64,000 bases of DNA from Sulfurovum sp. 16-42-52 (GTDB taxonomy: Bacteria; Campylobacterota; Campylobacteria; Campylobacterales; Sulfurovaceae). Location: contig NCHB01000007.1 of assembly GCA_002281755.1 (NCBI GenBank), positions 1 to 64,000 of the forward strand, written 5' to 3'. The position numbers and the translations under genes are program-made. How positions within the stretch are numbered: position 1 is the stretch's first letter; every line of letters starts with the position of its first letter. The notes beneath the pieces were generated by a model that was not told where the DNA came from, did no database searches, and saw only the letters and a list, made by a program, of their open reading frames with translations. Shown here piece after piece: positions 11,165 through 42,201 of this stretch.

Positions 11165-11171
11165 TTGCTAG

Positions 11172-12308: not shown

Positions 12309-12392
12309 AAAAATCCCCTATTAATAATCTTTATTTATGTTACAAAATACATACTTCATAACAACTTATTTATATTTATGAAAGCTACGCTG

Positions 12393-12620: not shown

Positions 12621-12640
12621 CGCTTTATCCTTTAGTGTTC

Positions 12641-12676
12641 ACCGAACTTTATACCGAATTTATTACCGAACTTGTT
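12641..12676 (-). repeat. Three tandem 12-bp repeats behind higA
   Basis: The plus strand shows three direct copies of a 12-mer beginning ACCGAA at 12641, 12653 and 12665. On the minus strand they translate, in frame with HigA and after its TGA stop, as NKFG-NKFG-IKFG followed by GEH and a TAA stop at 12632-12634. They may be a lost C-terminal extension of HigA or a DNA-binding repeat. Confidence 0.55.
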
Positions 12677-12697
12677 TGCAGCTTCTTTGACAGATAC

Positions 12698-13072
12698 TCA
12701 AACGGATGTTTGCTTGGGCTGAACCAAGACTTCCAATGGTAGATGCAAACCTTTTGCGAGATTGTAAATCATAGTCAAGGATAATCCTACTTTACGGTTA
12801 AGCACTTCCGAGACTTTACTTTTGTTACCGATGTAAGGCACAAGGTCTTTTTGCTTAAGGTGCATCTGCTCCATACGCACTTTGATGGCTTCTATGGGGT
12901 CTGGTTCAGCTATAGCCCAAGCTTTCTCTTCGTATTTTTCTATCAGAAGGGCTAACACTTCAAGTTCATCACTCTGTGTTGTACCCATTGCAGGATTTAA
13001 CGCCATCAGCTCATCAACCCTCTCAAGAGCCCTATCGTAGTCCGTTTCATTGTGTATGGGTTTTATGCTCAT
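12698..13072 (-). CDS. higA: HigA-family antitoxin
   Basis: The antitoxin of a type II toxin-antitoxin pair: it would bind and neutralise HigB and repress the operon. The C-terminal half holds an XRE-type helix-turn-helix (KQKDLVPYIGNKSKVSEVLNRKVGLSLTMIYNLAKGL, shown in shorter form as KQKDLVPYIGNKSKVSEVL). The N-terminal half is the helical region typical of the longer HigA antitoxins. The ATG directly follows the higB stop, giving the toxin-first order usual for HigBA. The coding frame stays open past the TGA for 20 more codons. Confidence 0.85.
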   Translation of the reverse strand: MSIKPIHNETDYDRALERVDELMALNPAMGTTQSDELEVLALLIEKYEEKAWAIAEPDPIEAIKVRMEQMHLKQKDLVPYIGNKSKVSEVLNRKVGLSLTMIYNLAKGLHLPLEVLVQPKQTSV

Positions 13073-13366
13073 CTATATCTCCTCTGCATTTATTTTGTCG
13101 TACTGGGCATGTGTGCCTACAAATTTCACTCTGACTATCTTGCGAACATAGTCAATATGAACGATAAGCCTATAATCATTGCCCTTAATGTTAAAAACGA
13201 CCCGATTGTCTTTTAAGAAAGAGGCATTTTCATACACTTTTTTAATGTCATCAGGTGTCTTCCACTCTGCTTTTCTTGCATCCGAATGCCATACCTCTAA
13301 TGGAGTTTTAGCTTGCACATGTTCTTCATAAAATTTTATAAGTGTTCGTTTACTGATGACATTCAT
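13073..13366 (-). CDS. higB: HigB-family mRNA interferase toxin
   Basis: A 97-residue protein of the HigB_toxin family, RelE-like ribosome-dependent mRNA interferases. Recognisable features are the N-terminal MNVISKRTLIKFYEEH, the central VVFNIKGNDYRLIVHIDY, and the C-terminal VKFVGTHAQYDKINAEEI with the conserved GTHAxYD. It is encoded directly before higA with no gap. The pair sits between the conserved glmS and the thiamine genes together with an HSDR_N protein, consistent with a small acquired island. Confidence 0.88.
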   Translation of the reverse strand: MNVISKRTLIKFYEEHVQAKTPLEVWHSDARKAEWKTPDDIKKVYENASFLKDNRVVFNIKGNDYRLIVHIDYVRKIVRVKFVGTHAQYDKINAEEI

Positions 13367-13402
13367 AGAGTGAGTGTAATATTTATTCCCTTAAAAGGAA
13401 CT

Positions 13403-14113
13403 TCATAGGTTTTCTTCAAACCATTGCGCACACAGGGCTTTGTAAATCACTTTATAGGCTTCTAGCTTCTCTTGACTCCAACCTTTAGTGTCAAAATAGT
13501 CTGTTAAAAAAGAGGCTTCGTCTTCAGGGCTTAAATCAAACTCCACACACACAGACGCCAAGTCAAAATAACAGTCATTCAACGCGGCAAATTCCCAGTC
13601 GATGAACTTGAGTGTTTGGTTTAAAAAAATGCAATTTTTGGGATTGAGGTCATTATGGCAGAGTACGGTATTTTTGGGAAAAGAGTCTATAGTTGCAAAA
13701 GCTTCTTGGACTTCAGGAGTAGGTGATTTAAATAGACTTTTCAAGTCCAAACTGTCGATTTTAAGACTTAAAGTGTGTAGCTTTTGTAGCTGTGCAGCAA
13801 AAAGGCTTAAGTCTTCTCTGGTTAATACATAGTGATGTTTGCCTTCCAAATAGTCACACACCATAAACCCTTGAGACAAATCCAAATGTAAAGGTTTGGC
13901 TGCCATGCCATTTTCATAGGCTAAGGTTTGCACTTTGTATTCTAAGGCTCTATCTCGGTCTTGTAGTTTAAATTTGCGTAACAAGTACTTGGTGTCTGCG
14001 ACCATAAAACTGTAGTTTTCATTGGAAAAACCTTGTTTGGGAAGGAGCGTAAACGCTTCTTTTTTTACATCTGCTGCAAACGCGAGTTTAGAGAGATCGA
14101 TGTTGAGCAACAC
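13403..14113 (-). CDS. Choline/aminoglycoside-kinase-fold protein, probable thiamine kinase
   Basis: An APH-fold small-molecule kinase. The catalytic loop is VLCHNDLNPKNCIF (HNDLNPKN) and the metal-binding Asp is in KFIDWEFA. An upstream ATG frame extends deep into the transporter gene; the better start is GTG 14113, preceded by GGAG at 5-nt spacing, giving 236 residues and a 26-nt overlap with pnuT. As the last gene of the TPP-riboswitch operon behind a thiamine transporter, it most likely phosphorylates imported thiamine (YcfN/ThiK-like role). That role is inferred from context; the fold also covers choline and other kinases. Confidence 0.75.
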   Translation of the reverse strand: MLLNIDLSKLAFAADVKKEAFTLLPKQGFSNENYSFMVADTKYLLRKFKLQDRDRALEYKVQTLAYENGMAAKPLHLDLSQGFMVCDYLEGKHHYVLTREDLSLFAAQLQKLHTLSLKIDSLDLKSLFKSPTPEVQEAFATIDSFPKNTVLCHNDLNPKNCIFLNQTLKFIDWEFAALNDCYFDLASVCVEFDLSPEDEASFLTDYFDTKGWSQEKLEAYKVIYKALCAQWFEENL

Positions 14114-14696
14114 TGCTTCTCCATGAAACATACGCATACACCGCCAAGATAACATAGAGTACAAAAAGCACGATGGTGGCAAGGTATCCTGACTTCCAGT
14201 ACAGTACAATCGCTACAGAGTCTACGACTATCCAATAGAGCCAGTTTTCAAGTATTTTTTTGGCTAACATCCAAGTGGCTATGACAGAGAAAACCATCAC
14301 AAAAGTGTCAAGATACGCGAAGTTCGCACCCAAATACCTGTCTGAAATATAGCCACCCGTGAGACTTAAAACAAGCCCTGCTAAAATGATTTTGCCATGC
14401 AAATAAACGCTCCAACTGCTTATGGGCAACTCTTCTTTTTTGGTGCCACCTCGCCATAAATAGAAGCCATAAAAAGCCATGCCCATGTAGTAAAAATTGA
14501 GTATTGCCGAAGAGAGCAAAGCATCATGCCAAAAAAGAATAGTGTAGATCAGTGTACCAAAAAATGCAAAAAACCATGTCCAAAGTGACTCTTTTGCTGC
14601 CAGTAAGATATAGGCGATGCCAAAACCAACGGCTAAAAGCTCCCAATAAGACATGGCAGCAAAAGCATCCATGATGCCCTCAAGCAAGAGTGTCAT
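14088..14696 (-). CDS. pnuT: PnuC-family vitamin transporter, probable thiamine transporter PnuT
   Basis: About seven TM helices in 202 residues, with the family's WLYWIVVDSVAIVLYWKSGY stretch near residue 155. PnuC proteins import nicotinamide riboside, while the PnuT subgroup carries thiamine; the TPP riboswitch upstream and the kinase and thiamine-binding genes beside it favour thiamine. Uptake would be facilitated diffusion trapped by phosphorylation. A second ATG at 14672 has a better-placed GAGG motif and is an alternative start (194 residues). Inner membrane. Confidence 0.82.
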   Translation of the reverse strand: MTLLLEGIMDAFAAMSYWELLAVGFGIAYILLAAKESLWTWFFAFFGTLIYTILFWHDALLSSAILNFYYMGMAFYGFYLWRGGTKKEELPISSWSVYLHGKIILAGLVLSLTGGYISDRYLGANFAYLDTFVMVFSVIATWMLAKKILENWLYWIVVDSVAIVLYWKSGYLATIVLFVLYVILAVYAYVSWRSSVAQHRSL

Positions 14697-14697
14697 G

Positions 14698-14955
14698 CTA
14701 AAAGATGCCTTCTCTGTTGTTGCCTATAAATTTAAGCACCATCACAGAGTGAGGAAGATTTGTGAAAACAGAAAACATCTCCTCATCCAACAACGCCATA
14801 ATGGTTTTATATTCCCCATGAAGTTGGGTACTGAGTTCATTGCAGATGACCTTCACGGAAGGTTCTGTTTTGAGTCTCTCTATAAACGCGCTAATTTCTG
14901 CTTCGTATCCCTCTATGGCGAGTGGGTACATACTGATATCGACTGAGATTTCCAT
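14698..14955 (-). CDS. YkoF/MTH1187-like thiamine-binding protein
   Basis: An 85-residue ferredoxin-like single-domain protein. The N terminus MEISVDISMYPLAIEGYEAEISAFI and the NELSTQLHGEY segment match the pattern of the thiamine/HMP-binding YkoF-related family. It lies 10 nt behind the TonB receptor gene and 1 nt before pnuT in the thiamine salvage operon. No signal peptide is present, so it acts in the cytoplasm, perhaps buffering imported thiamine or its pyrimidine. Family assignment is by pattern recognition, not a search. Confidence 0.7.
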   Translation of the reverse strand: MEISVDISMYPLAIEGYEAEISAFIERLKTEPSVKVICNELSTQLHGEYKTIMALLDEEMFSVFTNLPHSVMVLKFIGNNREGIF

Positions 14956-14965
14956 CGTTTATCCT

Positions 14966-17035
14966 TTAAAAATCATAACTAAGTGTGACACCGGCAGTGA
15001 GTGGTGTACCTTTTTGGGTATAGACTTCAGACTCATAACCATTTGCCGGGTTGTTTCCAAAGTAAAAACCTCTTACTTCATACTCTGTATCTGTTAAGTT
15101 TCTGCCCCACAGTATCACCGTAAAATCCCCATGCAGGTACTCAAGACTGCTGTTAAGCAAGGCATAAGGATCTGATTTGCTGTCGTGGGTATCGGAGAAA
15201 TAATAACTTCCCATACCGATCACATTGGTTCTAAATCTCCAGTTTTCGATAAAGTCATAATCAAACCCTACATTGTACTGATAGGCTGGAGATTGTGCAG
15301 GTGCTCTACCTGTCATCTCAGGCGTGTATTCATCAAACTCTGCATGAAGAAGTCCCAGTTTAGTATAAAGATGCAGCGTCTCAAGCGGATAATAATCAAG
15401 CTCAGACTCAAGTCCATAATAGCTTCCTTTGGCTGCGTTGTCGAAATAAGAAGTAAAACTTTTTTCTAACTCTAGATATGGCTTAACCTGCTGGTCTTGT
15501 CTTTTGCCATAAAAGAGGTTAAAACGGTTGATAAGCGTATTGTCAAAATAGTTTGAATTGACACCGACATCAAGATTCCACAGTGTTTCGGTTTGATAAA
15601 CCCTATCTGCCACAGGTACTTCATTGCCTGCATTCACGCCACCGGGTTTATAGCCTTTGGAGAGTGTGGTGTAGTACAGCACATTGCTTTGTGCCTCATA
15701 GCTAAGTCCGATTTTACCGCCAAACAAATTTTCATCTGTATTTTGCTTAAAAGCATTAGAGTCATCATACTCCACTTCCCAGCTTTCCGCTCTCACTCCC
15801 AGTGTAAATACCAACTTATCGGTTAAATCACTGTCTGTTTGTGCGTAAATAGCTTTAGAGATGGTGTTGTAATCATGTGTGAATAGATTATAGATACTAG
15901 GGTCAACATAATCCAGCGTATTTTGTGTCAGATTTTCGCTGTAGTCTTTGTAATACGCGCCCACAGTCCATGCTGTAGTTCCATCAAGTAGCTTTCCTGC
16001 TTCATCTGAAACTAAACGTATATCAAAATCGGTTTGTTTTTTGTCTCTTGCGTACGAATCAAAGCCCTGATACGGATACAAAGAAGCATCAAACTCACCC
16101 ACATAAGACCAATCTTCATCATAACTGTAAAGTGAATCAGTTACAGAGTGACTGATGGCTGTCACCAAATGCATCGACTCGTTAACCTGATAGGTTGATT
16201 TGACTGAAAAGGCATCGGTGAGCTGTGTGTCGCGTCCAGGCATATCGGAGTGAGAGTCCCAAGAGTTGTCCAGCGTAAAAGCATCATAGCCATTGTCTAT
16301 ATCGGCATGCAAAAGGTTAAAATCAATCGTATGGTTATCGCTTACGAGCCACTTGAGCGCACCTTTAACACTGAGTTCATCGATGCCGTTAGTGTCTTCT
16401 CTCCCCAAGTAGCTGTTATCCATATACCCGTCACTGCTATTTTTATAGACCGATACACGCCCCAACAAAGTATCTTCAATGATCGTTCCACCCACGGCTG
16501 CACCAAATGCTTTGGTGTTATAGTTTCCTACAGTTATTTCAGCATGTCCAGAAGCTTCAGAAGTTGGTTGATTGCTCTGTGCGATGACCATACCCGCCAA
16601 TGCATTGGCTCCAAATGTTGTGCCCTGCGGCCCTCTAAGTACTTCTATCTGCTTCACATCAAACAACGTCATACCAAGGGGACTTTGAGACAAATCAATG
16701 CCATCGAGTATCACACCCACCGAAGGATTCATGGTCGTTCCAAACTGGCTTCGTTCACCGATACCTCTAATTTGGATATATTTCGCTTTTGATGCGCCTG
16801 CGGTGAAATTGACATTGGGTGCAGATTGCAAGGCTTCGATAAAAGATTGTGTCGCTTTGTCATAGATCTCATCTTCGCCTATGACGGTGACACTATTGGT
16901 TGTTTTTGAAAGATTTTGCTCTCTAAAATCAGCCCCTACGACGATAGGATCAAGATTGACCTCTTGTGCAAAACTTATGGTGTTTAACAGTGCATATGCT
17001 GCGATGATCGAGCCGGTTAAAATGTTGGATTTCAT
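14966..17035 (-). CDS. TonB-dependent outer-membrane receptor, probably for thiamine
   Basis: A signal peptide ending near TISFAQ is followed by a plug domain (SVTVIGEDEIYD..., IRGIGER, VEVLRGPQGT-like QIEVLRGPQGTTFGANALAG near residue 130) and a 22-strand-type barrel ending in the aromatic YDF. The 689-residue length is usual. It is the first gene downstream of the TPP riboswitch at 17122-17193 and is followed by thiamine-binding, transport and kinase genes, which together indicate thiamine or a thiamine precursor as substrate. Energy comes from TonB-ExbBD, which are not encoded here. Confidence 0.88.
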   Translation of the reverse strand: MKSNILTGSIIAAYALLNTISFAQEVNLDPIVVGADFREQNLSKTTNSVTVIGEDEIYDKATQSFIEALQSAPNVNFTAGASKAKYIQIRGIGERSQFGTTMNPSVGVILDGIDLSQSPLGMTLFDVKQIEVLRGPQGTTFGANALAGMVIAQSNQPTSEASGHAEITVGNYNTKAFGAAVGGTIIEDTLLGRVSVYKNSSDGYMDNSYLGREDTNGIDELSVKGALKWLVSDNHTIDFNLLHADIDNGYDAFTLDNSWDSHSDMPGRDTQLTDAFSVKSTYQVNESMHLVTAISHSVTDSLYSYDEDWSYVGEFDASLYPYQGFDSYARDKKQTDFDIRLVSDEAGKLLDGTTAWTVGAYYKDYSENLTQNTLDYVDPSIYNLFTHDYNTISKAIYAQTDSDLTDKLVFTLGVRAESWEVEYDDSNAFKQNTDENLFGGKIGLSYEAQSNVLYYTTLSKGYKPGGVNAGNEVPVADRVYQTETLWNLDVGVNSNYFDNTLINRFNLFYGKRQDQQVKPYLELEKSFTSYFDNAAKGSYYGLESELDYYPLETLHLYTKLGLLHAEFDEYTPEMTGRAPAQSPAYQYNVGFDYDFIENWRFRTNVIGMGSYYFSDTHDSKSDPYALLNSSLEYLHGDFTVILWGRNLTDTEYEVRGFYFGNNPANGYESEVYTQKGTPLTAGVTLSYDF

Positions 17036-17121
17036 GATATTTCCCTTTTAATGGTGATGAATGCAGGAAAAAAAGAAGTAGATAAAAAGTGATAAAAAGT
17101 TATCGTTGTTTATATACAAGC

Positions 17122-17193
17122 CTCTTCCCTACGCTGGCATTATCCAGTTCAAGTTCGACGGGTTTTCTCAGCCTAAGCAGGCACCCCGAGAGA
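17122..17193 (-). ncRNA. TPP riboswitch upstream of the thiamine salvage operon
   Basis: On the minus strand the aptamer shows all conserved blocks in order: GGGGTGCC, a short P3 (GCCT...AGGC), GCTGAGA, ACCCG, GAACTTGAACTGG and ATAATGCCAGCGTAGGGA. It lies 87 nt upstream of the TonB receptor start. Binding of thiamine pyrophosphate would switch off receptor, transporter and kinase synthesis. It also separates this operon from thiG, which ends at 17259. Confidence 0.95.
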
Positions 17194-17258
17194 TTGATAT
17201 GTACTTATACAAAAAATAGCCTATTGTTATCCTTAAAATAGGTACAGGCTCTTTCTTG

Positions 17259-18071
17259 TTATGTAAACTGATGCCAAAATGGTGTACCGACAGTCGGCGT
17301 TGAGGGTGAAGCAAACTCGCGCTTTTGCATCACGCCTGCTTCATACCCCATCCGACCTGCTTCCACTGCCATTCTAAACGCATCTGCCATTTTTACTGGA
17401 TCCTGTGCCAAGGCAATGGCTGAGTTCAGCAATACCCCATCATACCCAAGCTCCATGGCTTGGATGGCATGCGAAGGTTTTCCGATGCCTGCATCGATGA
17501 TGAGTTTAAGCTCAGGAAACTGTTTTCTGATGGCTGTCAGATTATCCGGATTCATCAACCCTTTGCCTGAACCAATCATCGAACCCCATGGCATAATGAT
17601 CTTACATCCTACATCTGCCAAACGCTTGGCAACTACCAGATCATCTGTCGTATAAGGAAAGACTTCAAAGCCTTCTTTTATGAGCACTTCTGCGGCTTTA
17701 ACCGTCTCAAACGGGTCAGGTTGCAGGTTGTACTGATCACCTATGACTTCGAGTTTTATCCAGTTCGTACCGAACACTTCTCTCGCCATTTGTGCCGTGG
17801 TGATGGCTTCTTTAGCAGAGTGCGAGCCTGCTGTGTTGGGCAGTACTTCGATGTTTAACGACTTGATGATGTTCCAAAACGCATTGCCTCCGCCATCACC
17901 TGCTGCTTGACGTCTCAGAGCCACCGTGACGATTTGCGCGCCCGATATTTTGATGGCATCTTCCATATTGGCAGGGCTTGGGTACAAGGCTGAGCCGATG
18001 AGCAAGCGACTATTCAGGGTTTTACCCCCTATTTGCCATGATTGATTTTTGGTTTCTAAAGCTTGCATCAT
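17259..18071 (-). CDS. thiG: Thiazole synthase
   Basis: Condenses DXP, dehydroglycine and ThiS-thiocarboxylate sulfur to the thiazole phosphate of thiamine. A TIM-barrel protein of 270 residues; recognisable are [13 protein letters not shown], the Lys-containing NWIKLEVIG (DXP Schiff base), [26 protein letters not shown] with the C-terminal phosphate loop. It starts 1 nt after thiS. With thiO upstream it can use glycine oxidation rather than tyrosine cleavage as imine source. Last gene of the thiC-thiO-thiS-thiG set. Confidence 0.95.
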
Positions 18072-32291: not shown

Positions 32292-32756
32292 TCAGTCTTC
32301 AAAATACTCTTCAACAATCTGAGGAAAAAACTTAATCGTTCTTCTTGCTTTCGCAATCTTGGGCTCAAATACCACTGCTGTACTGGGGAATTTTGTCATG
32401 CATTCTGTATAGATATCTATCTTATCTTCCATATGCTCTTCTAATGCATCCAATACCGACTGCATATTTTCTTTCGTGGTTGCAAACTTCATCAACAACT
32501 CAAACATTCGTTTTCTCGGATGAATCGCCATAGAATCACCAGCTTCCAATGCAATATTTTTGATATCCCATTTTGAGATATAAATACCGCTTACATAAGG
32601 TGCAACCAATTTTGCATACAACGCTTCCGTGTAAGAAGGGTAATCTTTTAAATCAACCGCCTCATCTGCTTCACACGAACCGTCCATACAATTTTCTAAA
32701 GGCGCAACAAAATTTTTTGCGCTCATATTTTCAAATTCTTTTCTAAAATCGTCCAT
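32292..32756 (-). CDS. Orphan protein in the molybdoenzyme operon
   Basis: A 154-residue soluble protein beginning MDDFRKEFENMSAKNF, with a Cys pair in CMDGSCEADEAVD near residue 21 that may bind metal, then a helical domain (DSMAIHPRKRMFELLMKFATT, EHMEDKIDIYTECMTKFPSTA). ATG 32756 follows AAGGAG at 8 nt; the longer upstream frame overlaps the preceding gene. I do not recognise the family. Position at the end of the CISM-oxidoreductase cluster suggests an assembly or quality-control factor. Confidence 0.65.
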   Translation of the reverse strand: MDDFRKEFENMSAKNFVAPLENCMDGSCEADEAVDLKDYPSYTEALYAKLVAPYVSGIYISKWDIKNIALEAGDSMAIHPRKRMFELLMKFATTKENMQSVLDALEEHMEDKIDIYTECMTKFPSTAVVFEPKIAKARRTIKFFPQIVEEYFED

Positions 32757-32761
32757 TTCTT

Positions 32762-33205
32762 TCACTCCTTTTCTCCTATAAGTACGGGTATCATATCCAC
32801 ATCTATTCGTGCGTTGAACCACCTGTTTGCAATGAGCATGATTTTTGCAACAAAAATGATGTGCTCATCCAAAAATTCGGGTTTTTCAAACAAGGCCTGA
32901 GCCTCATCATCCAAACAATAACCATACACTTGACCCTCTACCACTTCAATAAAATCAACACGCCCTTTCCTGCTGGCACAGGCATTGAGTTGTGTACAGT
33001 AAGGCAAGGCTTTGGATGCAAACTCTTTTTCTAACATCATTTGTGTGACTTTTGAACTGCCGACACTTGAGAAAGTAAAATCAACATGTTCATCTTTGAT
33101 ATTAAGGGCAATTGCCGTTGCATTAAGCCCTTGATGTTTCATTATTTTATTAAAATAGCGTCTCATGTAGCCTGTTTGCGCATTGTAACCCAAAATGGTA
33201 CACAA
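32762..33205 (-). CDS. Orphan cytosolic protein in the molybdoenzyme operon
   Basis: A 147-residue soluble protein starting MCTILGYNAQTGYMRRYFNK, with cysteines at residue 2, in LPYCTQLNACAS and in YGYC. No membrane segment or signal peptide. It is separated by 44 nt from the Fe-S protein gene and by 5 nt from the next orphan, so cotranscription is likely. The family is not recognised. Conserved placement beside TorD-like and ferredoxin-type genes would suggest maturation of the molybdenum enzyme, but this is guesswork from context. Confidence 0.62.
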   Translation of the reverse strand: MCTILGYNAQTGYMRRYFNKIMKHQGLNATAIALNIKDEHVDFTFSSVGSSKVTQMMLEKEFASKALPYCTQLNACASRKGRVDFIEVVEGQVYGYCLDDEAQALFEKPEFLDEHIIFVAKIMLIANRWFNARIDVDMIPVLIGEKE

Positions 33206-33249
33206 TCCTGTGTCTGGTTTTATCTCATGTGGCTGGATGATACACCTCC

Positions 33250-34359
33250 CTACTCTTCATTTCGCATTCGTATCGCATTGTTATGCAAAAACATCGCTTC
33301 TTCTTCTTCGGTTGAGCAACGAGGGCATGTCTGCTCACCACCCCTATAGGTAAAACTATTTCCACATTCATTGCAGCGTTTAATGTTAAAGGTAGCGAGT
33401 GTTCTTTGTGATGGTTCAAAAAACTCTTTGATTTCAAATCCGCTTTGCAATTGTATCGCATCAGGCTCACAGGCATCATGACACAAACGACACTTCAGAC
33501 AAAGCATGGCATCAAAATGAATCAGAGAAAACTTTGCATCCGAACTCAAAGCACCGCTGGGACAGATACGGTAACAGATTTGACAGTTTGTACAGGCATC
33601 GGTGACAAATTTTTGGGACACAAAACTCACTTCTTCTTCAGGAAGTATTTCAAATGTTTCGGGCACGCCTGCACGTTTGAGTGCTGTGAATAATATCTTA
33701 CGTTTATCGGGTACACGTTTTTCCCTGATTTTTGCTATAGTCTCTGTATCCAAGCCAAATCGTTTCAGTTCATCGGCATTCACGGCTTCATCAAAAGTTT
33801 TTTTAACCTTGAGTGCTCCCTTGATGGAGGCTGTCTCTAAAAAAGCACGTCTTGAAGCAGTCTCCTCTTCAGTTTCTTCTTGTTCTTTGTCCAACGTTGT
33901 TTTTATGACATAGTTGCTTGAGAGCTGTTTAGAAGAGAAGGAAGAAAGAATGAAGTTGGCTTCTTCAAGCATCGCGTGTATATGCGCAAACAAATCACTT
34001 CCCTCTTCATAAGAACTCAAATCCAACGATATCTCTTCATCGCTTGCCAATGCCAAGGCTATCAAATGCTCCACACTCAACACCGATAAACACGGCACAT
34101 TGAGTTTGGGAGAAATGTACCGTACTTTGGATTCCAAAAAAGTAAAGAAAAACTCTGTGGTTGAAAACCCGGACAAAGAAAAAGCTTCGGTAGGACACAC
34201 CCCCACACAAGCAGCTGCTTCGATACCTGTAGCGTTTGCGAAGGTAGGAAGATTGTCCACTATCTGAATACTTGAGGGGGCTACATCCATGCACTTTGTA
34301 CAGGCTGAAAACTTACTTTTGGCTCTCACACAGAGACTGACATCAAACTCTAATTGCAT
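33250..34359 (-). CDS. Multi-cluster 4Fe-4S protein with C-terminal zinc ribbon
   Basis: A 369-residue soluble protein in three parts. Residues 1-75 hold a degenerate ferredoxin-like Cys set (CVRAKSKFSACTKC, ACVGVCP). Residues about 250-310 are a standard bacterial 2[4Fe-4S] module (CTNCQICYRICPSG, CLKCRLCHDACEPD). The C terminus has a rubredoxin/zinc-ribbon pair (CNECGNSFTYRG, CPRC). Its ATG overlaps the TorD-like stop by one base (TGATG). No Tat or Sec signal, so it is cytoplasmic, probably a NapF-like maturation factor or an electron carrier for the molybdoenzyme. Confidence 0.75.
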   Translation of the reverse strand: MQLEFDVSLCVRAKSKFSACTKCMDVAPSSIQIVDNLPTFANATGIEAAACVGVCPTEAFSLSGFSTTEFFFTFLESKVRYISPKLNVPCLSVLSVEHLIALALASDEEISLDLSSYEEGSDLFAHIHAMLEEANFILSSFSSKQLSSNYVIKTTLDKEQEETEEETASRRAFLETASIKGALKVKKTFDEAVNADELKRFGLDTETIAKIREKRVPDKRKILFTALKRAGVPETFEILPEEEVSFVSQKFVTDACTNCQICYRICPSGALSSDAKFSLIHFDAMLCLKCRLCHDACEPDAIQLQSGFEIKEFFEPSQRTLATFNIKRCNECGNSFTYRGGEQTCPRCSTEEEEAMFLHNNAIRMRNEE

Positions 34360-34994
34360 CAGTGTTCACAATTGCTTTGCAGTGTTTGCGTGATATACTC
34401 AAAATCACTCAATAAAAATTCCAAAGTCAACTCAGCACCATCATGATACAGAGGGGTTCTGGACTCTTTTTTGGCGTTAATTAAAAAGAGTGGTGCCCAT
34501 TCTAAAAGATGCTCTTGCAAAAAAGATTTTTGCACATCAAGCAACTCACAAATACCCTCTTTATCATCCGCATCAAAGGCTCTTTGCTGTGCCATACAAA
34601 GCATATACATAAATTCGAGCTCGACACCAATATGATCAGGACTAACAACCCGTGCTTTATCGAGTTCGACTCTAAATCCATACTCATTATACAAATCAAG
34701 CACAGGATTGTCTCCACCACTCTCGATCATTTGATCATCTCTAGTATAAAAACTTTCATACGGAATCAAATCCAGCAAAAACAGATTGGCAAAATCTACA
34801 TTATACTGCTCGGCTATGAGTGTCTCATTTGTATATTTGCTGCGTTTTTCCCACGTCTGATAGTGTGGAAATAACGACAATAAGGCCTCATTACTTTCAA
34901 TGGTATCCAAAAATGCACTGTCAACCTCAGTCATCATCAGCCTAGAAATCAAGGCATATAAGGTGATTCTATTTTCAATTTCTTCTTTTATCAT
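34359..34994 (-). CDS. TorD/DmsD-family molybdoenzyme chaperone
   Basis: An all-helical, 211-residue cytoplasmic protein. The pattern YESFYTRDD (near residue 80) and the LGVELEFMYMLCMAQQ-like stretch HIGVELEFMYMLCMAQQRA (near residue 120) correspond to the conserved face of TorD-like chaperones, which bind the Tat leader and keep the apoenzyme open for cofactor insertion. It is encoded behind the Tat-exported catalytic subunit, separated from it by a perfect hairpin at 35035-35063 that may lower its expression. Confidence 0.82.
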   Translation of the reverse strand: MIKEEIENRITLYALISRLMMTEVDSAFLDTIESNEALLSLFPHYQTWEKRSKYTNETLIAEQYNVDFANLFLLDLIPYESFYTRDDQMIESGGDNPVLDLYNEYGFRVELDKARVVSPDHIGVELEFMYMLCMAQQRAFDADDKEGICELLDVQKSFLQEHLLEWAPLFLINAKKESRTPLYHDGAELTLEFLLSDFEYITQTLQSNCEH

Positions 34995-35034
34995 GGTGCT
35001 CTTTTAGTGATAGTATCGTTTTGCAGCAGTGTAA

Positions 35035-35063
35035 TAACGCTTCTTTATCTTAAAGAAGCGTTA
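35035..35063 (-). other. 13-bp hairpin between catalytic subunit and chaperone genes
   Basis: Arms 35035-35047 and 35051-35063 form a perfect 13-bp stem with a 3-nt loop, 11 nt after the stop of the large molybdoenzyme gene on the minus strand. No T-run follows in the direction of transcription, so it is more likely an mRNA 3'-end stabiliser or partial attenuator than a full terminator. Confidence 0.65.
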
Positions 35064-35073
35064 AAAGGAGGTG

Positions 35074-38000
35074 TTACCCTTTTATCTCAACAGACCAGGC
35101 ATTTTTAGTCAACGGCCATACCGGTCGTTTAAGCTGCGTTGGTCTTCTGGTTGTATTAGTACTGTCAAGCGGTCTAGCCAGCTCATCTCTCCACGCTTTA
35201 TAAATTTTGAAGTTATTCTCATAGTTGACGTAAATATCACCTATCACTTCATCCTTACCTGCAAGCGTGATCGATACTTTTTGGTGCCATGCATGGTTAC
35301 ATGCAATTGGATCCGGGTGTGCAGGTGCAACAGCATTTTGCCATGAACCGCTCAATCCGTTCCACCAAATATTATCAAGGTCTCTGTTGTATTCTTTAAA
35401 CTGCCATGTATCTTTTCTTGCCATCATTCCAGCAACGATACCCTCTTTTGGCTTGAGCGTACCGATTTTATCATCCATCGTCATTTCATACAATGGTGAG
35501 CCGACACCCATGACACCCAATTTTTTATCAAAACCAGGGATGTCAACTGTATTTTGAAGTTTCCATCTACCTGCGTGGTGTGAACAAGCCAAGGTACCTG
35601 GCAATACCGCCTCAGTCGGTACAGCCATCGCGATAAAATACCCAGACTCAAGTCCACAAACGGTATCTGAAATCGTAACTTTGATACTGTCGCCACGTTT
35701 GATACCCAATCTTTCAGCATCAACAGTCGCTATCCAGATAGGGTTATGGTTTTGTGAAATCTCCATCAAATGTTTAGAGTTCACTGAACGCGTATGGATA
35801 TTATATGACAACCTAAAGATAGGATTCAGGGCAAAATCATTCTCGTTAACCATATGGTCATGGTGTACCTGAGAAACGATGTGTACCATTTTTTGACGTT
35901 GTTCTTTGGTTGTCGGATAGACCGGTATCGCATACTCAGGCCATTTCCAGTCTTTCATCCATGAGGCATAAAACTCCATCTTACGGCTTTGTGAATTAAA
36001 TCCGGCAACTACTTTGTCACCCATTTTGATACCCATTGCTTTTTCGTCGTCCGTACCTAGCACTTTTGCTCTAGCGATACCCTTCTCATCTACCCACATA
36101 GAGGATGGATCAAATTTGATCTCCATCGATTCAATTGCACCATGTTCTTCAACAAGTTCTCTTTCTTGAGGACGATAGATATTTGCTTTTTCCAACCATG
36201 TACCCATATCACGCATCATTTCATAGTTAGGGTATTTGCTCCCTGCATATTTAGGGTTCTTTTTTGCTTCAATACTCAAATGGTGTACATTTTCAAATAC
36301 AGCCTGATACCATTCAGGAATAGTTACCGGTCTGCTTGGGTCTTCTTTACTTGCCCAGTGTTGTCTGACACCAAGGCTTCCATCAGGGTCAACATGGTGT
36401 ACCATGATATTTGCCCAGAACTCAACCTCTTCCCATACTTCACCAAGACCTGCTTTTGTATGCGCTTCAAGTGTTGCACGAGTCGGATTCTCGGCCACCC
36501 ATCCCATTTTCTCCAAAGCCACTCTAAGTGCAGGCTGTCTAAAACTTAGCCATTGTGCCGGCATCGTCGCTTCAGAGTGTTGGTCATGTCTCTCACTCGC
36601 CAAACCAGTAGGCAAGATGTAGTCACAGTACCAGTTTGTCTCCGACCATGTTGGAGAGAGATTTACCGTCATCTCCATCTTACTTTCATTTTTCAGCACA
36701 TCAATCCATCTGAAACCATCCGGGTTAATCCACGCAGGGTTATACATTCTTGGAATATAGAGTGCCAATTTTGTTGGAACATTCACACCTTTTGCATGCC
36801 AGTTTTGTTGCCACTCTTCATCCGCTAAGAGGTGTGGCAAGAGATAACTTGGCTCATTGGTTGAGAGTGGGAAATCCGGTGGCCACAAAAGCTCATTCCA
36901 TGCATCAACTGCGCCCGGTTTTTTTCCAGCTTGCGTTGCCGCATCTCCTTTTGCGTTTACAAAAATTTCATGGAAATAATATTGTCCCACATTTCCAACA
37001 TCACCCGTCATACATCCACGAAGAGCCAAAGCCAAAACACCCGCTCTTACGTTCATCCAACCGCCACGGTTACCGATTGTTCCTGCTCGCCAGAAGTAAG
37101 TAGTGACTTTATCTTCAGCTTCGATGAACATTTCAAAAAGTTTCTCTAGCGACTTAGCGTCTACGCGACACTCTTTGGCTGCAAACTCTAACGTGTACGG
37201 TTTATACATCTCTTGAAGCAAGGCGATGAAATCCTCATAGGTTTCACCGGCAGGTACTTTTGAAATATAGCCTTGAGCAACCATATACTCTAGGTATTCT
37301 TTGTCTTTAAGCAGTACATCCCAGTTCATCCAATCTTTAATCGCCTCATGATTGATATAACTTGTGTGTCGTTTTGGATCTATTTCATTGACTATTCTAT
37401 TAACAAGATAGAGATACAATGCAGCCTCTGTTCCTGGCCAGATCGGAACCCAAAGGTCTGCCATACCGGCTGAGTTTGACATACGCGGATCCATAACTAC
37501 CAGTTTTGCACCTTTTTTTCTTGCATCAGCGATAAATCCTGCATGCTGTTGGAAAAAGTGTCCTGCATCTGCTGCATGAGAAGACTGAAGGAAAATCAAT
37601 TTACTGTTTGCCCAATCCGGACTTGGTCTGTCATCACCAAACCATTGTGACAATCCTTGTCTTGCACCTGAACTACATACGTTTGAGTGAGAGTTGTGTC
37701 CGTCAACACCCATAGAGTAAAGCACTCTGTGCCCAAAACCACTTTCATTAGGGCGCCCCACATGGTACATAATCTCTTTTTTAGAGAGCTCATCTCCACT
37801 TTTGAGCGTATCGTGCATTTTTTTGCCGATAGTCTCCATCGCTTCATCCCAAGTCGTTCTTACCCATTTACCTTCACCACGCTTAGAACCTGGTGCACGT
37901 TTAAGTGGGAAAGGGATACGATCTGGGTCATACATTTGGGACTGTACCGCATACCCTTTTGCACAGTTTCTACCACGGCTTGCCGGGTGAAGCGGATTTC

Positions 38001-38427
38001 CCATATGTTTACGGACTCTAAGGTCTCTTGGATCTTTAGATGCTTTATAGTCACCAATGTCAACCCATGCTGTGATACCGCATGCTGCTTCACAGTTAGA
38101 ACAAACAGCAGGCACTAGCATGTATTCGATAGCTTTAATCCCTGTAGGGTTTTCTGCACTCCATACACCGTTTCTACCTGTTCCGCCTCTTTTCCAATCC
38201 TCTCCGCTGAGCTCACTAAAGCTGTCCCATTCACTAAAAGGCGGGTAAAAAGAAAGCGTTTTAGGTGTTGGCGTAAACTTTGTCTCAGCCACTGCTGGCG
38301 TATCCACTACCGTTTTAAATACACCAGTAGCCAATGATGCACCTGCTACCGTGTAAGCCGTACCTTTAAGGAAACTTCTTCTACCTTCGATAAAATTTTT
38401 ATCTTCTGTATTCATTGATTTTGTCAT
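35074..38427 (-). CDS. Tat-exported molybdopterin oxidoreductase, catalytic subunit (CISM family)
   Basis: A 1117-residue DMSO-reductase-family enzyme. The Tat signal is EGRRSFLKG (Arg16-Arg17). Cysteines 109, 112, 116 and 155 form the proximal [4Fe-4S] site (CSNCEAAC...GRNCAKG). Cys251 in SHSNVCSSGARQG is the candidate molybdenum ligand, then come the MGD-binding domains and the C-terminal MopB domain. With the PsrB-like and NrfD-like genes it forms a periplasmic quinone-linked complex of Psr/Ttr/Sre type. It is much longer than PsrA or PhsA (about 760). Likely substrates are inorganic sulfur compounds (polysulfide, tetrathionate, thiosulfate) but sequence does not decide. Confidence 0.85.
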   Translation of the reverse strand: MTKSMNTEDKNFIEGRRSFLKGTAYTVAGASLATGVFKTVVDTPAVAETKFTPTPKTLSFYPPFSEWDSFSELSGEDWKRGGTGRNGVWSAENPTGIKAIEYMLVPAVCSNCEAACGITAWVDIGDYKASKDPRDLRVRKHMGNPLHPASRGRNCAKGYAVQSQMYDPDRIPFPLKRAPGSKRGEGKWVRTTWDEAMETIGKKMHDTLKSGDELSKKEIMYHVGRPNESGFGHRVLYSMGVDGHNSHSNVCSSGARQGLSQWFGDDRPSPDWANSKLIFLQSSHAADAGHFFQQHAGFIADARKKGAKLVVMDPRMSNSAGMADLWVPIWPGTEAALYLYLVNRIVNEIDPKRHTSYINHEAIKDWMNWDVLLKDKEYLEYMVAQGYISKVPAGETYEDFIALLQEMYKPYTLEFAAKECRVDAKSLEKLFEMFIEAEDKVTTYFWRAGTIGNRGGWMNVRAGVLALALRGCMTGDVGNVGQYYFHEIFVNAKGDAATQAGKKPGAVDAWNELLWPPDFPLSTNEPSYLLPHLLADEEWQQNWHAKGVNVPTKLALYIPRMYNPAWINPDGFRWIDVLKNESKMEMTVNLSPTWSETNWYCDYILPTGLASERHDQHSEATMPAQWLSFRQPALRVALEKMGWVAENPTRATLEAHTKAGLGEVWEEVEFWANIMVHHVDPDGSLGVRQHWASKEDPSRPVTIPEWYQAVFENVHHLSIEAKKNPKYAGSKYPNYEMMRDMGTWLEKANIYRPQERELVEEHGAIESMEIKFDPSSMWVDEKGIARAKVLGTDDEKAMGIKMGDKVVAGFNSQSRKMEFYASWMKDWKWPEYAIPVYPTTKEQRQKMVHIVSQVHHDHMVNENDFALNPIFRLSYNIHTRSVNSKHLMEISQNHNPIWIATVDAERLGIKRGDSIKVTISDTVCGLESGYFIAMAVPTEAVLPGTLACSHHAGRWKLQNTVDIPGFDKKLGVMGVGSPLYEMTMDDKIGTLKPKEGIVAGMMARKDTWQFKEYNRDLDNIWWNGLSGSWQNAVAPAHPDPIACNHAWHQKVSITLAGKDEVIGDIYVNYENNFKIYKAWRDELARPLDSTNTTRRPTQLKRPVWPLTKNAWSVEIKG

Positions 38428-38440
38428 AGATATCTTCTCC

Positions 38441-39391
38441 TTAACTTAATGGTAACATTTGTGGGATTTTAAGCCATACATCTTTAACCAAGAATAGCCC
38501 CACCAATGCTAGTATTGCTGCCAATCGAAGCAGCGTAATGTTATCTGATTTAATCGTACTGAGTCCCAAAAAGAACGGGATAATAAAGCCCAGTGTCATA
38601 CCTGTCCAAAACTCTACATTGTATGCTCCGCCGGCATGTACAAAGGCCAATGTCGCTTCTGCTTCAGAAGACTTGAATGAGAAGAAATACTCACTCATAT
38701 ACATCGCAAACGAAAAGAACACTGCAATCGTCAGAACAAAAGCCAAATCTTTTCTAGCCTCTTTGCTCCAAGAACCAGAGACCAAAATCAGAGCTGCAGA
38801 ACCTGCCATAAATGCTGCCCACAACATCTGCATCACTTCAGTCGGTGCCTGCCATAACTCACGTGCACTTGACTGAGCCATGATGATGGCTGTATAGGTT
38901 GTGACAGGAATGGCTAAAAACACCAAGAATGGCATGATTTTTTCATACACCGCTGAATTATTTCTTGCTAACGCACTCAGCTTACAATTTTTACCGCCAA
39001 GTGTCGGGAATGCATCTGCTACACCGATAAGCAATAAAACAGTCACCAGGCCCAAGAAAAGAGATGCCAACCACGCACCCACCGTGATGGATGAAGTCCA
39101 ATGCGGATGGGTGAAAATATGAATCATTCTATATGGCTGGTGCAAATCGATCAATGTAAACAACAAAAATACATTAAGAGCGATAAATGCAATCACAGGC
39201 ATGATCCATCTTAAATTGGGCATGGATTCTTTTTTATGTCTATAGAGCAAATAAGCTGCCAAAAAGACAACTCCGGTACCGATACTTTTTGCCCACATAT
39301 TGACTGTAATAATGCTACCCCAAACGATACCCTGAATCGGGACGTCAAGTGTTACAATTGCTTGTGTCGCGTGTATTGTATTTTCAACCAT
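38441..39391 (-). CDS. NrfD/PsrC-family membrane quinol subunit
   Basis: A 316-residue protein with eight to ten TM helices; LIDLHQPYRMIHIFTHPHWTSSITVGAWL carries the family's D-x3-P and S-x-T-x-G features near residue 85. It anchors the complex and exchanges electrons with menaquinol. The start used is ATG 39391, 1 nt after the ferredoxin stop and preceded by GGAGG at 8 nt; the longer frame reaching into the ferredoxin gene is not needed. It lies between ferredoxin and catalytic genes, so the order is B-C-A. Confidence 0.87.
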   Translation of the reverse strand: MVENTIHATQAIVTLDVPIQGIVWGSIITVNMWAKSIGTGVVFLAAYLLYRHKKESMPNLRWIMPVIAFIALNVFLLFTLIDLHQPYRMIHIFTHPHWTSSITVGAWLASLFLGLVTVLLLIGVADAFPTLGGKNCKLSALARNNSAVYEKIMPFLVFLAIPVTTYTAIIMAQSSARELWQAPTEVMQMLWAAFMAGSAALILVSGSWSKEARKDLAFVLTIAVFFSFAMYMSEYFFSFKSSEAEATLAFVHAGGAYNVEFWTGMTLGFIIPFFLGLSTIKSDNITLLRLAAILALVGLFLVKDVWLKIPQMLPLS

Positions 39392-39392
39392 C

Positions 39393-40148
39393 TTAGTGTC
39401 CTCCTTCTTTACTGTGTGTTTCCACATTTTCCTGCATCGCTGTAAAGTTGTCATTGTTTAACTTCGCGTGACCTGCAAACGGTGCCAAGAATCTGTCTAA
39501 AATACTGTGATGTTTGTCTCCGACGTGCTCCAAATGCGTGATGTCGTTAAAGAGACTGAACCCTTCTAGTCTTTGATGTGCAAGCGGATTAAGTGTTTGA
39601 TTACCGCCGCCGACATAAAAGTGTGTCGGAGAAGTATGCTTTTCAGGTTTACGAACCTGTACGGCACCTTTGTGTTCCATGATATAACGTGAGATATGGC
39701 TGTTGTCATCTTCGATGTCACCAAAAATATTGGCTTCAACAGGACAAACAACCACACAAGCAGGCATCATGCCACTTTCGATACGGTGTGCACAATACGT
39801 ACATTTGTCTGCTGTGTTTGTTTCAGGATCCATATAGATAGCACCATAAGGACAGGCCATCATACAGCCAGCACACCCGATACAGCGTGAACTATCGATA
39901 TTGACAATCCCATTTTCCAAATAATGCAATGCAGATACCGGACAGATACGCTCACACGGTGCGCTCTCACAGTGGTTACAGCGAAGCGGTGTAAACGATC
40001 TTTTTGTCTCTGGAAATACGCCAAGATCAATGTATTTAACACGCAAACGCCAAGAACTAAGTGGAACTTCATTTTCCACTTTACAAGCAATCTCACAACC
40101 TTTGCAGCCCATACAAAGACTGAGGTCAACTAAGAAACCTAATTTCAT
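39393..40148 (-). CDS. Ferredoxin-type electron-transfer subunit with four 4Fe-4S sites
   Basis: A 251-residue PsrB/DmsB-like subunit. Four Cys groups are visible: CMGCKGCEIACK (near residue 14), CNHCESAPCERICP (57), CIGCAGCMMACP (89) and CTYCAHRIESGMMPACVVVCP (117). It would pass electrons between the NrfD-like subunit and the molybdenum subunit; export probably by hitch-hiking on the Tat leader of the large subunit as it has none itself. First gene of the operon, 26 nt downstream of a perfect Fur/PerR-type palindrome. Confidence 0.9.
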   Translation of the reverse strand: MKLGFLVDLSLCMGCKGCEIACKVENEVPLSSWRLRVKYIDLGVFPETKRSFTPLRCNHCESAPCERICPVSALHYLENGIVNIDSSRCIGCAGCMMACPYGAIYMDPETNTADKCTYCAHRIESGMMPACVVVCPVEANIFGDIEDDNSHISRYIMEHKGAVQVRKPEKHTSPTHFYVGGGNQTLNPLAHQRLEGFSLFNDITHLEHVGDKHHSILDRFLAPFAGHAKLNNDNFTAMQENVETHSKEGGH

Positions 40149-40332: not shown

Positions 40333-41358
40333 TCACTCTTCAATTATAAATGAAAAAACAGAGCCTTTGCCCTCTTCACTGTCGATTTGAAGTTTGCTGT
40401 GATGCATAGACAGTATGGTTTTAATGATAGACAGACCCAATCCCATAGAATTATCCCAATTATGCGTACCTGAACGGTAAAATTTCTTCGTTACTTTTTC
40501 AACATCATAGCTGTTGATTCCCACACCTTTGTCAATGACGGATACACTCCTGCCCGCTATACGGAGTATCACTTCATCTTTGGAGTATTTGAGAGCATTT
40601 TCTATCAGATTTTTCAGCACGATCTCCATGAGTGTCCGATCGGCCTCAACCTTCAACGAATCTCCCTCTATATGTATAACTCTGTTCTTATATTGTTCTT
40701 CGAGTACGAGTTTGACCTCTTGTGCCAGAACAAACATATCGAAGATACTTTTATGCAGTGTTGCTTCACCGCTTTCAAATTTATTCCACAACACCAGACG
40801 GCTTAACAGTGCTTCTATTTTGATACTGTTGTTGTAGATTTTGCCTAAAAATTTATCACGTAACTGTGAGGGGATCTCTTTGTCTTCTTCTAAAGTTTGC
40901 GAGTAGCCCATAATCGAGGCTATGGGGTTGCGAAATTCATGAGCGATTGCGGAGATCATGTCGCCACGCTGTTTATTTTTCAGTTTAAGCTTTGCATTAT
41001 AGCGCTGCTTGATTTGATCTCGTTTTCTGGCACTCTTGATCACCTTGATCAAATTTTGATTGATATCTTCAAACTCTTGGGTAAACAGTTCGATTTCATC
41101 GTCAAATTTTTCAACTTTGTCCAGATTTTCAAGGTATTTATTGATGACTACAAGCTCTTTTTGCATCCGAACTGCACCACGGTAAATGGCATAGATAAAG
41201 ACAGAAAAGCCTATGATCAAAAATGCGATAATCTCTAACGCAACAGTGCCATTTGAGACAAACACAAGCAAAATAAGACTAAAAAAAAGACTCGTTGCAA
41301 CGCTGAGTGTGACCAAACGTGCCATGATATATTCTGTAAAATGCGGACGTTTATACAC
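40333..41358 (-). CDS. Orphan membrane sensor histidine kinase
   Basis: Two TM helices at residues about 12-35 and 38-58 with almost no periplasmic loop, then a coiled linker and the HisKA motif SAIAHEFRNPIAS (phospho-acceptor His near residue 139), N box NLIENALKYSK, and G boxes VIDKGVGI and GLGLSIIKTIL. The tiny sensory loop suggests detection within the membrane or via cytoplasmic input. No response regulator gene is adjacent. It lies 184 nt upstream of the molybdoenzyme operon in the same direction and after the thioredoxin pair (10-nt gap). Confidence 0.88.
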   Translation of the reverse strand: MYKRPHFTEYIMARLVTLSVATSLFFSLILLVFVSNGTVALEIIAFLIIGFSVFIYAIYRGAVRMQKELVVINKYLENLDKVEKFDDEIELFTQEFEDINQNLIKVIKSARKRDQIKQRYNAKLKLKNKQRGDMISAIAHEFRNPIASIMGYSQTLEEDKEIPSQLRDKFLGKIYNNSIKIEALLSRLVLWNKFESGEATLHKSIFDMFVLAQEVKLVLEEQYKNRVIHIEGDSLKVEADRTLMEIVLKNLIENALKYSKDEVILRIAGRSVSVIDKGVGINSYDVEKVTKKFYRSGTHNWDNSMGLGLSIIKTILSMHHSKLQIDSEEGKGSVFSFIIEE

Positions 41359-41368: not shown

Positions 41369-41803
41369 CTAATTATCGGTTTCTATCTCAACAAGATAGC
41401 TTAAAAAATCTTCTGTTTCAAAATATCCGATAATCGTCTCAATGGTCTCTTTGTTAGCGGTCATAAAATGAAAACTCGGTATCGCCGCGGTAAAGCCTTC
41501 TATCTGCTTGATACTTTCTTTGTCTGACCTTTGCACTTTGAGTAATACATAGTCCTGTAATTTTACTTGCACATCAGGGTTGGAGAGTGCGCCATTTTTC
41601 ATCTTGACACACCACTTGCATTGTGGTTCTTCAACCATAACCATCACATCTTTATGCTCTTTTTTTGCGCGCTCAAATGCTGTAGAAAACGCTGTTTCCC
41701 ACTCAAGTTTATGATAGGCTTGCAGTATTTCTGTCTGTTGCCGCGCGAACCCTTGAGATACGCCCATACACCCTAATGCAACAAACAGTATGATCTTCTT
41801 CAC
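41369..41803 (-). CDS. Periplasmic thioredoxin-fold protein, copy 2 of a tandem pair
   Basis: A signal peptide (MKKIILFVALGCMGVSQGFA) precedes a thioredoxin-like domain with the CxxC motif CKWC (near residue 63) preceded by EEPQ, and a cis-proline region AIPSFHFM. The C-terminal ETEDFLSYL is nearly shared with the neighbouring copy (41812). It belongs to the DUF255/thioredoxin_7-like group. Role may be disulfide reduction in the periplasm. Encoded 8 nt after its paralogue. Confidence 0.8.
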   Translation of the reverse strand: MKKIILFVALGCMGVSQGFARQQTEILQAYHKLEWETAFSTAFERAKKEHKDVMVMVEEPQCKWCVKMKNGALSNPDVQVKLQDYVLLKVQRSDKESIKQIEGFTAAIPSFHFMTANKETIETIIGYFETEDFLSYLVEIETDN

Positions 41804-41811
41804 ACTTGACC

Positions 41812-42201
41812 TTATTTTGTTATGCTTTGGGCATCATTGATATAAGCGATAAAATCTTCAGCATTAAAATAACCTAGCACTTCTTGCAAAACTTCTTTGT
41901 TCTCTTTCATGAAAAATGTTGTCGGTGCACCCTGAATGGCAGGCAAATATTTCGTGGCATCGACATCTTCACTCATCACCTTAACAACTACAAAGGATTC
42001 AAGTCTTTTTTGAACCGCTTCATCGGAAAACGTACGATACTTCATTTTTTTGCACCATCTGCATGTTTGGCTCTCAACAAACACCATCACATTTTTATGC
42101 TCTTTTTGTGCCACTGCAAAAGCAGTTGGGACATCTTTTACCCATTCCAATGAAAAAAGCGCACTGCTCAAGAGCACGATGCTTAGTAGAATTTTATGCA
42201 T
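41812..42201 (-). CDS. Periplasmic thioredoxin-fold protein, copy 1 of a tandem pair
   Basis: A 129-residue protein with an N-terminal signal peptide (MHKILLSIVLLSSALFS), then a thioredoxin-like domain with ESQTCRWCKKMKYRTFSD (CRWC near residue 47) and the cis-Pro GAPTTFFM. YFNAEDFIAY at the end matches the paralogue downstream. The two copies likely arose by tandem duplication and then diverged (the second has a longer region before the domain). It follows dapE by 9 nt and may be read from the same transcript. Confidence 0.8.
   Translation of the reverse strand: MHKILLSIVLLSSALFSLEWVKDVPTAFAVAQKEHKNVMVFVESQTCRWCKKMKYRTFSDEAVQKRLESFVVVKVMSEDVDATKYLPAIQGAPTTFFMKENKEVLQEVLGYFNAEDFIAYINDAQSITK

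Follow-up and report, generated by a model that had tools for sequence, protein, structure and literature searches.

Gene content and layout of the locus

Seven genes were located on the minus strand of the window, the 64,000-nucleotide stretch of contig NCHB01000007.1 that was analysed. They run from position 40148 to position 32292 in the order B, C, A, D, E, O1, O2. The original prediction had described this arrangement as B-C-A followed by a chaperone, an Fe-S protein and two orphans, and all seven genes are indeed open, in that order and on that strand. The individual features are given below.

39393..40148, minus strand: B, electron-transfer subunit with four [4Fe-4S] clusters (251 aa; 16 Cys; best NCBIfam match TtrB NF011569, below its cut-off; 76-95% identity in relatives)
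38441..39391, minus strand: C, NrfD/PsrC-type membrane subunit, predicted to be quinone-reactive (316 aa; PF03916; 8 hydrophobic segments)
35074..38427, minus strand: A, Tat-exported molybdopterin catalytic subunit (1117 aa; PF04879, PF00384, PF01568; Cys251 as Mo ligand; own clade)
34359..34994, minus strand: D, TorD/NarJ-type chaperone (211 aa; PF02613, E 1.1e-18)
33250..34359, minus strand: E, cytoplasmic Fe-S/zinc-ribbon protein, proposed maturation factor (369 aa; alignment A3 with invariant Cys)
32762..33238, minus strand: O1, shikimate-dehydrogenase-like, here reduced to the N-terminal domain (158 aa; start codon apparently ATC; NF001322, E 2.6e-6)
32292..32756, minus strand: O2, all-helical orphan, proposed maturation factor (154 aa; ATG start; alignment A2)

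The gaps between neighbouring genes are 1 bp (B/C), 13 bp (C/A), 79 bp (A/D), -1 bp (D/E), 11 bp (E/O1) and 5 bp (O1/O2). A sensor kinase gene ends 184 bp upstream of B, and a malic enzyme gene lies 55 bp beyond O2. Scans of the locus for promoters and terminators returned matches no better than the chance level.

The coordinates first proposed hold overall, with the exception of three gene starts. Comparison with homologues placed the start of C at 39391, the open reading frame start at 39454 being too early. The start of O2 was assigned to the ATG at 32756 (the GTG at 32822 is too early) and that of O1 to 33238 (the TTG at 33205 is too late). O1 orthologues with a readable start carry ATG, GTG or TTG at one position (“MQPHEIKPDT...”), and the start codon is ATC behind GGAGG both in the window and in L031, a metagenome-assembled genome (MAG) with 95% identity.

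The cluster is kept at 55-98% identity across a large genome set, so chance has no bearing on whether it is real. The closest loci are found in Sulfurovum MAGs (95-98% identity), followed by those of other Sulfurovaceae, Hydrogenimonas and Sulfurimonas, and the seven-gene order is retained in most Sulfurovum loci that have enough flanking sequence.

B has 16 cysteines arranged in four cubane motifs, C scored 88.5 bits against PF03916 (cut-off 25.8), and D scored 68.0 bits against PF02613 (gathering cut-off 22.2), which identifies it as a TorD/NarJ chaperone. Together with A, the locus thus has the subunit make-up of the PsrA/PhsA type, namely a molybdenum catalytic subunit with a Cys ligand, a B subunit with four [4Fe-4S] clusters and an NrfD-type C subunit. 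Among the 18 cysteines of E are those of a zinc ribbon (C329/C332/C345/C348) and of two [4Fe-4S] motifs in the C-terminal part. The N-terminal dicluster is decayed: alignment A3 shows all of it in Hydrogenimonas, whereas Sulfurovum has lost part of it.

The two genes beyond E had been described as encoding unrecognised proteins, a description that does not hold for O1. Full-length O1 orthologues from Hydrogenimonas and Sulfurimonas matched the AroE model NF001319 (E 2.2e-13 and 1.4e-19) at no more than 70.3 bits against a cut-off of 252, and Sulfurovum O1 keeps only the N-terminal domain, the window protein corresponding to the N-terminal half. By these sequence comparisons O1 is homologous to AroE, yet it is not an AroE. 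O2 is predicted to be all-helical (AlphaFold pLDDT 80) and gave no trustworthy match in fold searches with Foldseek (best E 1.3) or VIA-align (Z at most 5.7), a result that does not imply a new fold.

Placement of the catalytic subunit

The A protein carries the Tat motif GRRSFLK, whose RR pair is invariant in a 31-sequence alignment, and ligands for a proximal [4Fe-4S] cluster at C109/C112/C116/C155. Cys251, proposed earlier as a candidate ligand, is invariant and occupies the alignment column of the Mo-binding Cys in TtrA, ArrA, PhsA and PsrA. PF04879 and PF00384 were found above their cut-offs and PF01568 at its cut-off. The predicted excess of about 350 residues was also borne out, A being 1117 aa long and PsrA/PhsA 758-820 aa. 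One added domain was considered as the source of this length and rejected, since the alignment scatters the residues over many insertions: relative to PsrA3/PhsA there are about ten insertions and two blocks of about 60 residues on the C-terminal side (965-1025 and 1057-1117). Most of this layout is already seen in a 963-aa relative from Thermomicrobium.

The AlphaFold model of A (pLDDT 76) was compared with solved structures using VIA-align and matched molybdopterin oxidoreductases at Z 20-24, including the PsrA structure 2vpw (Z 23.6 over 671 residues) and formate dehydrogenases (Z 23-24). The solved sequence closest to A is also 2vpw. The model thus indicates the general molybdopterin-oxidoreductase fold and gives no verdict on family.

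No NCBIfam equivalog reached its own cut-off on A. The scores were 114 bits against the PhsA model (cut-off 694), 65.5 bits against the ArrA model NF041714 (cut-off 1600) and 43.5 bits against the TtrA model NF011567 (cut-off 1750). Two trees were built, the second with PhsA added and long branches removed, and SH-aLRT support was taken from a quick search; warnings of the tree program on long branches apply to the deeper joins. The trees were assembled without SoeA, ArxA and Wolinella PsrA, and the tips representing TtrA and ArrA are TtrA-like and ArrA-like proteins from Campylobacterota genomes, none of which passes the curated cut-off. Most of the TtrA-like proteins scored 887-981 bits against the TtrA model, which had no matches in control genomes. 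A and its Campylobacterota orthologues formed one clade with 100% SH-aLRT support in both trees. TtrA-like, ArrA-like, PhsA, PsrA group III, NapA/Nas and Dms proteins fell in clades separate from A, the TtrA-like and ArrA-like proteins each forming a 100% clade of their own outside it. PsrA2 grouped with NapA, far from A; PMC10045233 places PsrA2 with Aquifex SreA. Judged from these sequences, A appears to form a clade of its own, inside none of TtrA, ArrA, PhsA, PsrA group III, Nap or Dms as far as tested, in line with the original view that it is not clearly TtrA, PsrA or arsenate reductase.

The sister group of the A clade consists of enzymes from Thermomicrobium, Rhodococcus and the haloarchaeon Natrinema, with 100% support for the joint clade. 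The Thermomicrobium enzyme is 42% identical to A over 931 aligned residues and has motifs in common with it, YHVGRP...SHTN(I/V)CS(S/A)G. Unlike A, the three sister enzymes are cytoplasmic, lack a Tat leader and are encoded beside a single gene in which B and C are fused; an Mrp/ApbC-type ATPase gene lies downstream in two of the three loci, and D-E-O1-O2 was not found in them. The Rhodococcus jostii gene adjoins TusA, DsrE and three metallo-beta-lactamase (MBL)-rhodanese fusions, and the Thermomicrobium gene adjoins a CsoR-type repressor. A more distant cluster on pAZKH of Azoarcus sp. KH32C resembles the window in its gene order, B-C-A-TorD, and in encoding a homologue of E over the full length (E 3e-77), but its A protein is only 25-29% identical to window A. 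Its small accessory proteins (DUF309-like, HisF-like and rhodanese-like) gave no match to O1 or O2.

PsrABC of Thermus and Wolinella and PhsABC of Salmonella have in common with the window a Mo-bisPGD catalytic subunit with a Cys ligand, a four-cluster B subunit and a membrane anchor, which is of the NrfD type in Psr. The window enzyme differs from them in the greater length of A, in an identity of 21-23% over aligned columns, in its clade, and in the additional genes E, O1 and O2.

Distribution of the accessory genes

Co-distribution was assessed in 397 Campylobacterota genomes; those listed were all of the window's order, Nautiliales lying outside the coverage. A strong O2 match was defined as E at most 1e-30. 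A was found in 85 genomes, belonging to Sulfurovaceae, Sulfurimonadaceae and Hydrogenimonas-type genomes, and strong O2 in 84. Absence of the orphans beside homologous clusters was checked for and the opposite was seen, with A and O2 together in 82 genomes and neither in 310. Three genomes had A only (G028, G029 and G416, in the last of which A runs to the contig edge) and two had strong O2 only (G230 and G415). Fisher's exact test gave a nominal p of ~1e-78, a value that is inflated by relatedness and carries no ancestry correction. Of the 85 genomes with A, 84 also have E, in one case cut by a contig edge. Profile searches of the loci recovered D in 78, O1 in 62, O2 in 65 and E in nearly all with enough flank; O1 is absent in some lineages. 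The orphans O1 and O2 are conserved partners of the catalytic gene.

The accessory genes were also observed apart from A-B-C. In two Sulfurimonas denitrificans-type genomes (G354 and G345), A-B-C stands alone and D-E-O1-O2 forms a separate operon about 1 Mb away. Only B-C-A was seen in Sulfurovum loci L047, L049, L055 and others, whose cassette may lie elsewhere in the genome. At four loci (L205, L206, L207 and L211), an operon for a periplasmic type II DMSO-reductase-like enzyme has paralogues of D, E and O2 on its flanks. This second system has these paralogues in common with the window cassette, but differs in its catalytic subunit (~960 aa), in a NarH/EbdB-like beta subunit, in the lack of a detected NrfD gene and in the absence of O1.

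A cassette that accompanies molybdoenzymes but is separable from any single one shows the pattern expected of maturation factors, and the paralogues beside a second, different periplasmic molybdoenzyme point the same way. The evidence for such a role of D-E-O1-O2 is one of association. The suggestion made at the outset, that the orphans may be dedicated maturation factors, is well supported by distribution and agrees with their conservation with the cluster.

Proposed function and alternative readings

The genome G024 is taken here to be that of Sulfurovum NBC37-1, as a lead and not as proof. The A, B and C proteins of an S. indicum-like genome, G016, are 81, 89 and 88% identical to their G024 counterparts. 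S. indicum ST-419 is described in PMC10045233 as having four psrA genes, with psrA1B1C1 (“group I”) 81-89% similar to PsrABC of NBC37-1, and the agreement of these values indicates that the same proteins are concerned. The four psrA candidates of G016 have their key Cys at 171, 247, 183 and 195, a set also printed in that source, where it is assigned in another order, and soxB lies ~33 kb from A in G016, which fits the distance implied by the locus tags given there. On this evidence the orthologues of B-C-A are PsrABC in Sulfurovum NBC37-1 and psrA1B1C1 in S. indicum; A, B and C of these genomes are 68-82% identical to the window proteins and the seven-gene order is identical in both.

The description of the locus as an undescribed respiratory system accordingly does not hold for B-C-A, A/B/C having been reported as PsrABC/psrA1B1C1 (PMC10045233). 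A PSR homologue is reported for every sequenced Sulfurimonas (PMC4584964); A is the single-copy gene that fits it in the genome search, and A/B/C in all likelihood correspond to this PSR by sequence. In these sources, the function of psrA1B1C1/PSR is inferred from annotation and transcripts (PMC10045233, PMC4584964), and Psr activity in Epsilonproteobacteria is cited after Yamamoto 2010 (PMC4674564). The available part of PMC10045233 covers A, B and C and does not mention D, E, O1 or O2; no paper discussing the cassette was found in the open-access literature. According to the same paper, none of the four psrA products has a Tat motif and the enzyme is cytoplasmic. Contrary to this, SRRTFLK was seen in the S. 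indicum-like A, and SRRKFLQ in psrA3 and psrA4.

The locus is best read, with a probability of roughly 60%, as a PsrABC-type complex iron-sulfur molybdoenzyme with a dedicated assembly cassette, whose substrate would be zero-valent sulfur or a similar sulfur compound. A would bind Mo-bisPGD and one [4Fe-4S] cluster and mature in the cytoplasm with the aid of D, which would guard the Tat leader and the apo-enzyme. E, with its Fe-S clusters and zinc ribbon, may supply or protect Fe-S/cofactor loading, and O2 and the AroE-like O1 would be accessory factors in a four-gene maturation module. Folded A would then be exported by Tat and sit with B on the periplasmic face of C, which would exchange electrons with menaquinone. 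Zero-valent sulfur in the form of polysulfide or persulfide, or else a sulfur compound close to it, is the most likely substrate. Electrons derived from H2 would probably reduce it, though the reaction may run in either direction.

The link to sulfur draws on the host groups, on the sulfur gene neighbours of the sister clade and on the psrA1B1C1 transcripts, which are high and little regulated. In PMC10045233 they range over 2504-17,874 FPKM and rise 1.2-2.1-fold on S0 relative to nitrate, not significantly, while psrA3B3C3 rises 4-7-fold. A rhodanese-like gene also occurs in the Azoarcus operon. As the A clade holds neither PhsA nor PsrA group III, the “polysulfide” label is borrowed. Polysulfide reduction and sulfur-compound oxidation are both compatible with the sequences, and a quinone-linked zero-valent sulfur enzyme is favoured.

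The oxidative form of this chemistry, a distinctly less probable but serious alternative, would make ABC a periplasmic sulfite or sulfane-sulfur:menaquinone oxidoreductase, Soe-like with the catalytic side outside and electrons passing into the quinone pool. The relatives nearest to A outside the phylum lack a Tat leader and come from mostly aerobic organisms, which accords just as well with an oxidative role. The neighbours of the R. jostii gene form a setting of sulfite or persulfide oxidation, the groups that carry A are known as sulfur oxidisers, and some Sulfurimonas, including DSM 1251, lack SorAB (PMC7952632). Against this, SorAB is present in most Sulfurimonas (PMC7952632), the enzyme is read as reductive in the literature, and the topology differs, the nearest relatives being cytoplasmic. 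The catalytic subunits of SoeABC and bacterial SreA are likewise cytoplasmic and without a Tat leader, whereas window A has one. The tree contains no SoeA reference, and no SoeA structure was found in the PDB when the family profile or the Thermomicrobium enzyme served as query.

It is improbable that the orphans are neighbours kept by clonal inheritance or serve a different pathway, which for the AroE-like O1 might be aromatic amino-acid metabolism. The co-distribution counts do depend on ancestry, O1 is missing in some lineages, and the malic enzyme gene is likewise conserved beside the cluster within Sulfurovum. However, the malic enzyme is a neighbour only in Sulfurovum-type loci, D-E-O1-O2 stays together in G354 and G345 at a distance from A-B-C, and D, E and O2 recur as paralogues at the second molybdoenzyme locus. 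Least probable is that the enzyme reduces tetrathionate or another polythionate: the B-C-A order is known from ttrBCA in the literature, A exceeds 1000 aa as TtrA does and the best match of B is TtrB (E 9.3e-58), but A falls far short of the TtrA cut-off and the Campylobacterota TtrA-like proteins, besides forming their separate clade, are absent from the window's family (Sulfurovaceae) in the genomes searched.

Beyond the reading of the locus as a zero-valent sulfur enzyme with its own assembly genes, a more tentative extension is that D-E-O1-O2 may be an unrecognised Campylobacterota maturation pathway, with two versions for two periplasmic molybdoenzymes and a co-opted AroE-like protein, and that the A clade, together with its cytoplasmic sisters from bacteria and archaea, may be a separate family of sulfur oxidoreductases to which polysulfide has been wrongly assigned as substrate. 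In vents, sulfidic caves and redoxclines Sulfurovum and Sulfurimonas are the dominant groups, and a “psrA” in their genomes is taken as proof of sulfur reduction. A is the psrA found in most Sulfurovum/Sulfurimonas, yet it lies outside the tested PhsA/PsrA branch, so that the sulfur-reduction reading rests on a name. With the cassette, four concrete genes toward an active enzyme are in hand, and the question of its substrate would become testable.

Genes upstream of B and the start codon of O1

Two features lie upstream of B, the gene of the electron-transfer subunit.

41369-42201, minus strand: two tandem thioredoxin-like genes
40333-41358, minus strand: sensor kinase gene without an adjacent regulator gene

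The position of the sensor kinase gene is kept in many Sulfurovum loci. A further feature, at the shikimate-dehydrogenase-like gene O1, emerged from comparison with its orthologues.

33236-33238, minus strand: apparent ATC start codon of O1

The other orthologues with a readable start carry ATG, GTG or TTG at this codon. In the window the ATC is preceded by a Shine-Dalgarno sequence, GGAGG, and ATC was also found at the equivalent codon of O1 in a second, 95% identical metagenome-assembled genome (L031). By sequence, ATC thus appears to be the start codon of O1 in both.

Relatives of the catalytic subunit and of the cassette

Paralogues of TorD, the Fe-S/zinc-ribbon protein E and the all-helical orphan O2, together with an Mrp-like ATPase, accompany a second operon type in Hydrogenimonas and other Campylobacterota. 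The operon encodes an alpha subunit of ~960 residues, a NarH/EbdB-like beta subunit and an exported protein of ~400 residues.

L205, 7180-14673 (also L206, L207 and L211): periplasmic type II DMSO-reductase-like operon
L129, 1323-15534: sulfur island of Rhodococcus jostii pRHL3
L112, 2308-4626, and G000:C21: gene apparently corresponding to psrA2 of PMC10045233

The R. jostii island encodes a cytoplasmic relative of A, the catalytic subunit. Genes for TusA and DsrE_2 lie around it, together with three that encode MBL-rhodanese fusions and with ArsR regulator and DUF202 genes. In Thermomicrobium and in Natrinema (L128 and L130), the gene of the corresponding cytoplasmic relative adjoins branched-chain-amino-acid-type ABC transporter genes. 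The apparent psrA2 product resembles a Nas/Nap-type enzyme and groups with NapA in the tree, and its sulfur-reductase label therefore deserves to be checked.

Variation of A in Campylobacterota

The A gene is interrupted in several records.

Sulfurovum mangrovi record L132, 8001-11344: A (unannotated) and sensor kinase genes, each split by frame breaks

These breaks reflect sequencing error or decay. An internal stop in A was observed in a few Sulfurimonadaceae genomes (G231, G282 and G359). In many Sulfurimonadaceae (L189, L192, L193 and L200), A shows greater divergence over its C-terminal ~150 residues: the alignment breaks near residue 965 and resumes at ~50–57% identity. This sequence divergence is possibly a sign of a different partner or substrate.
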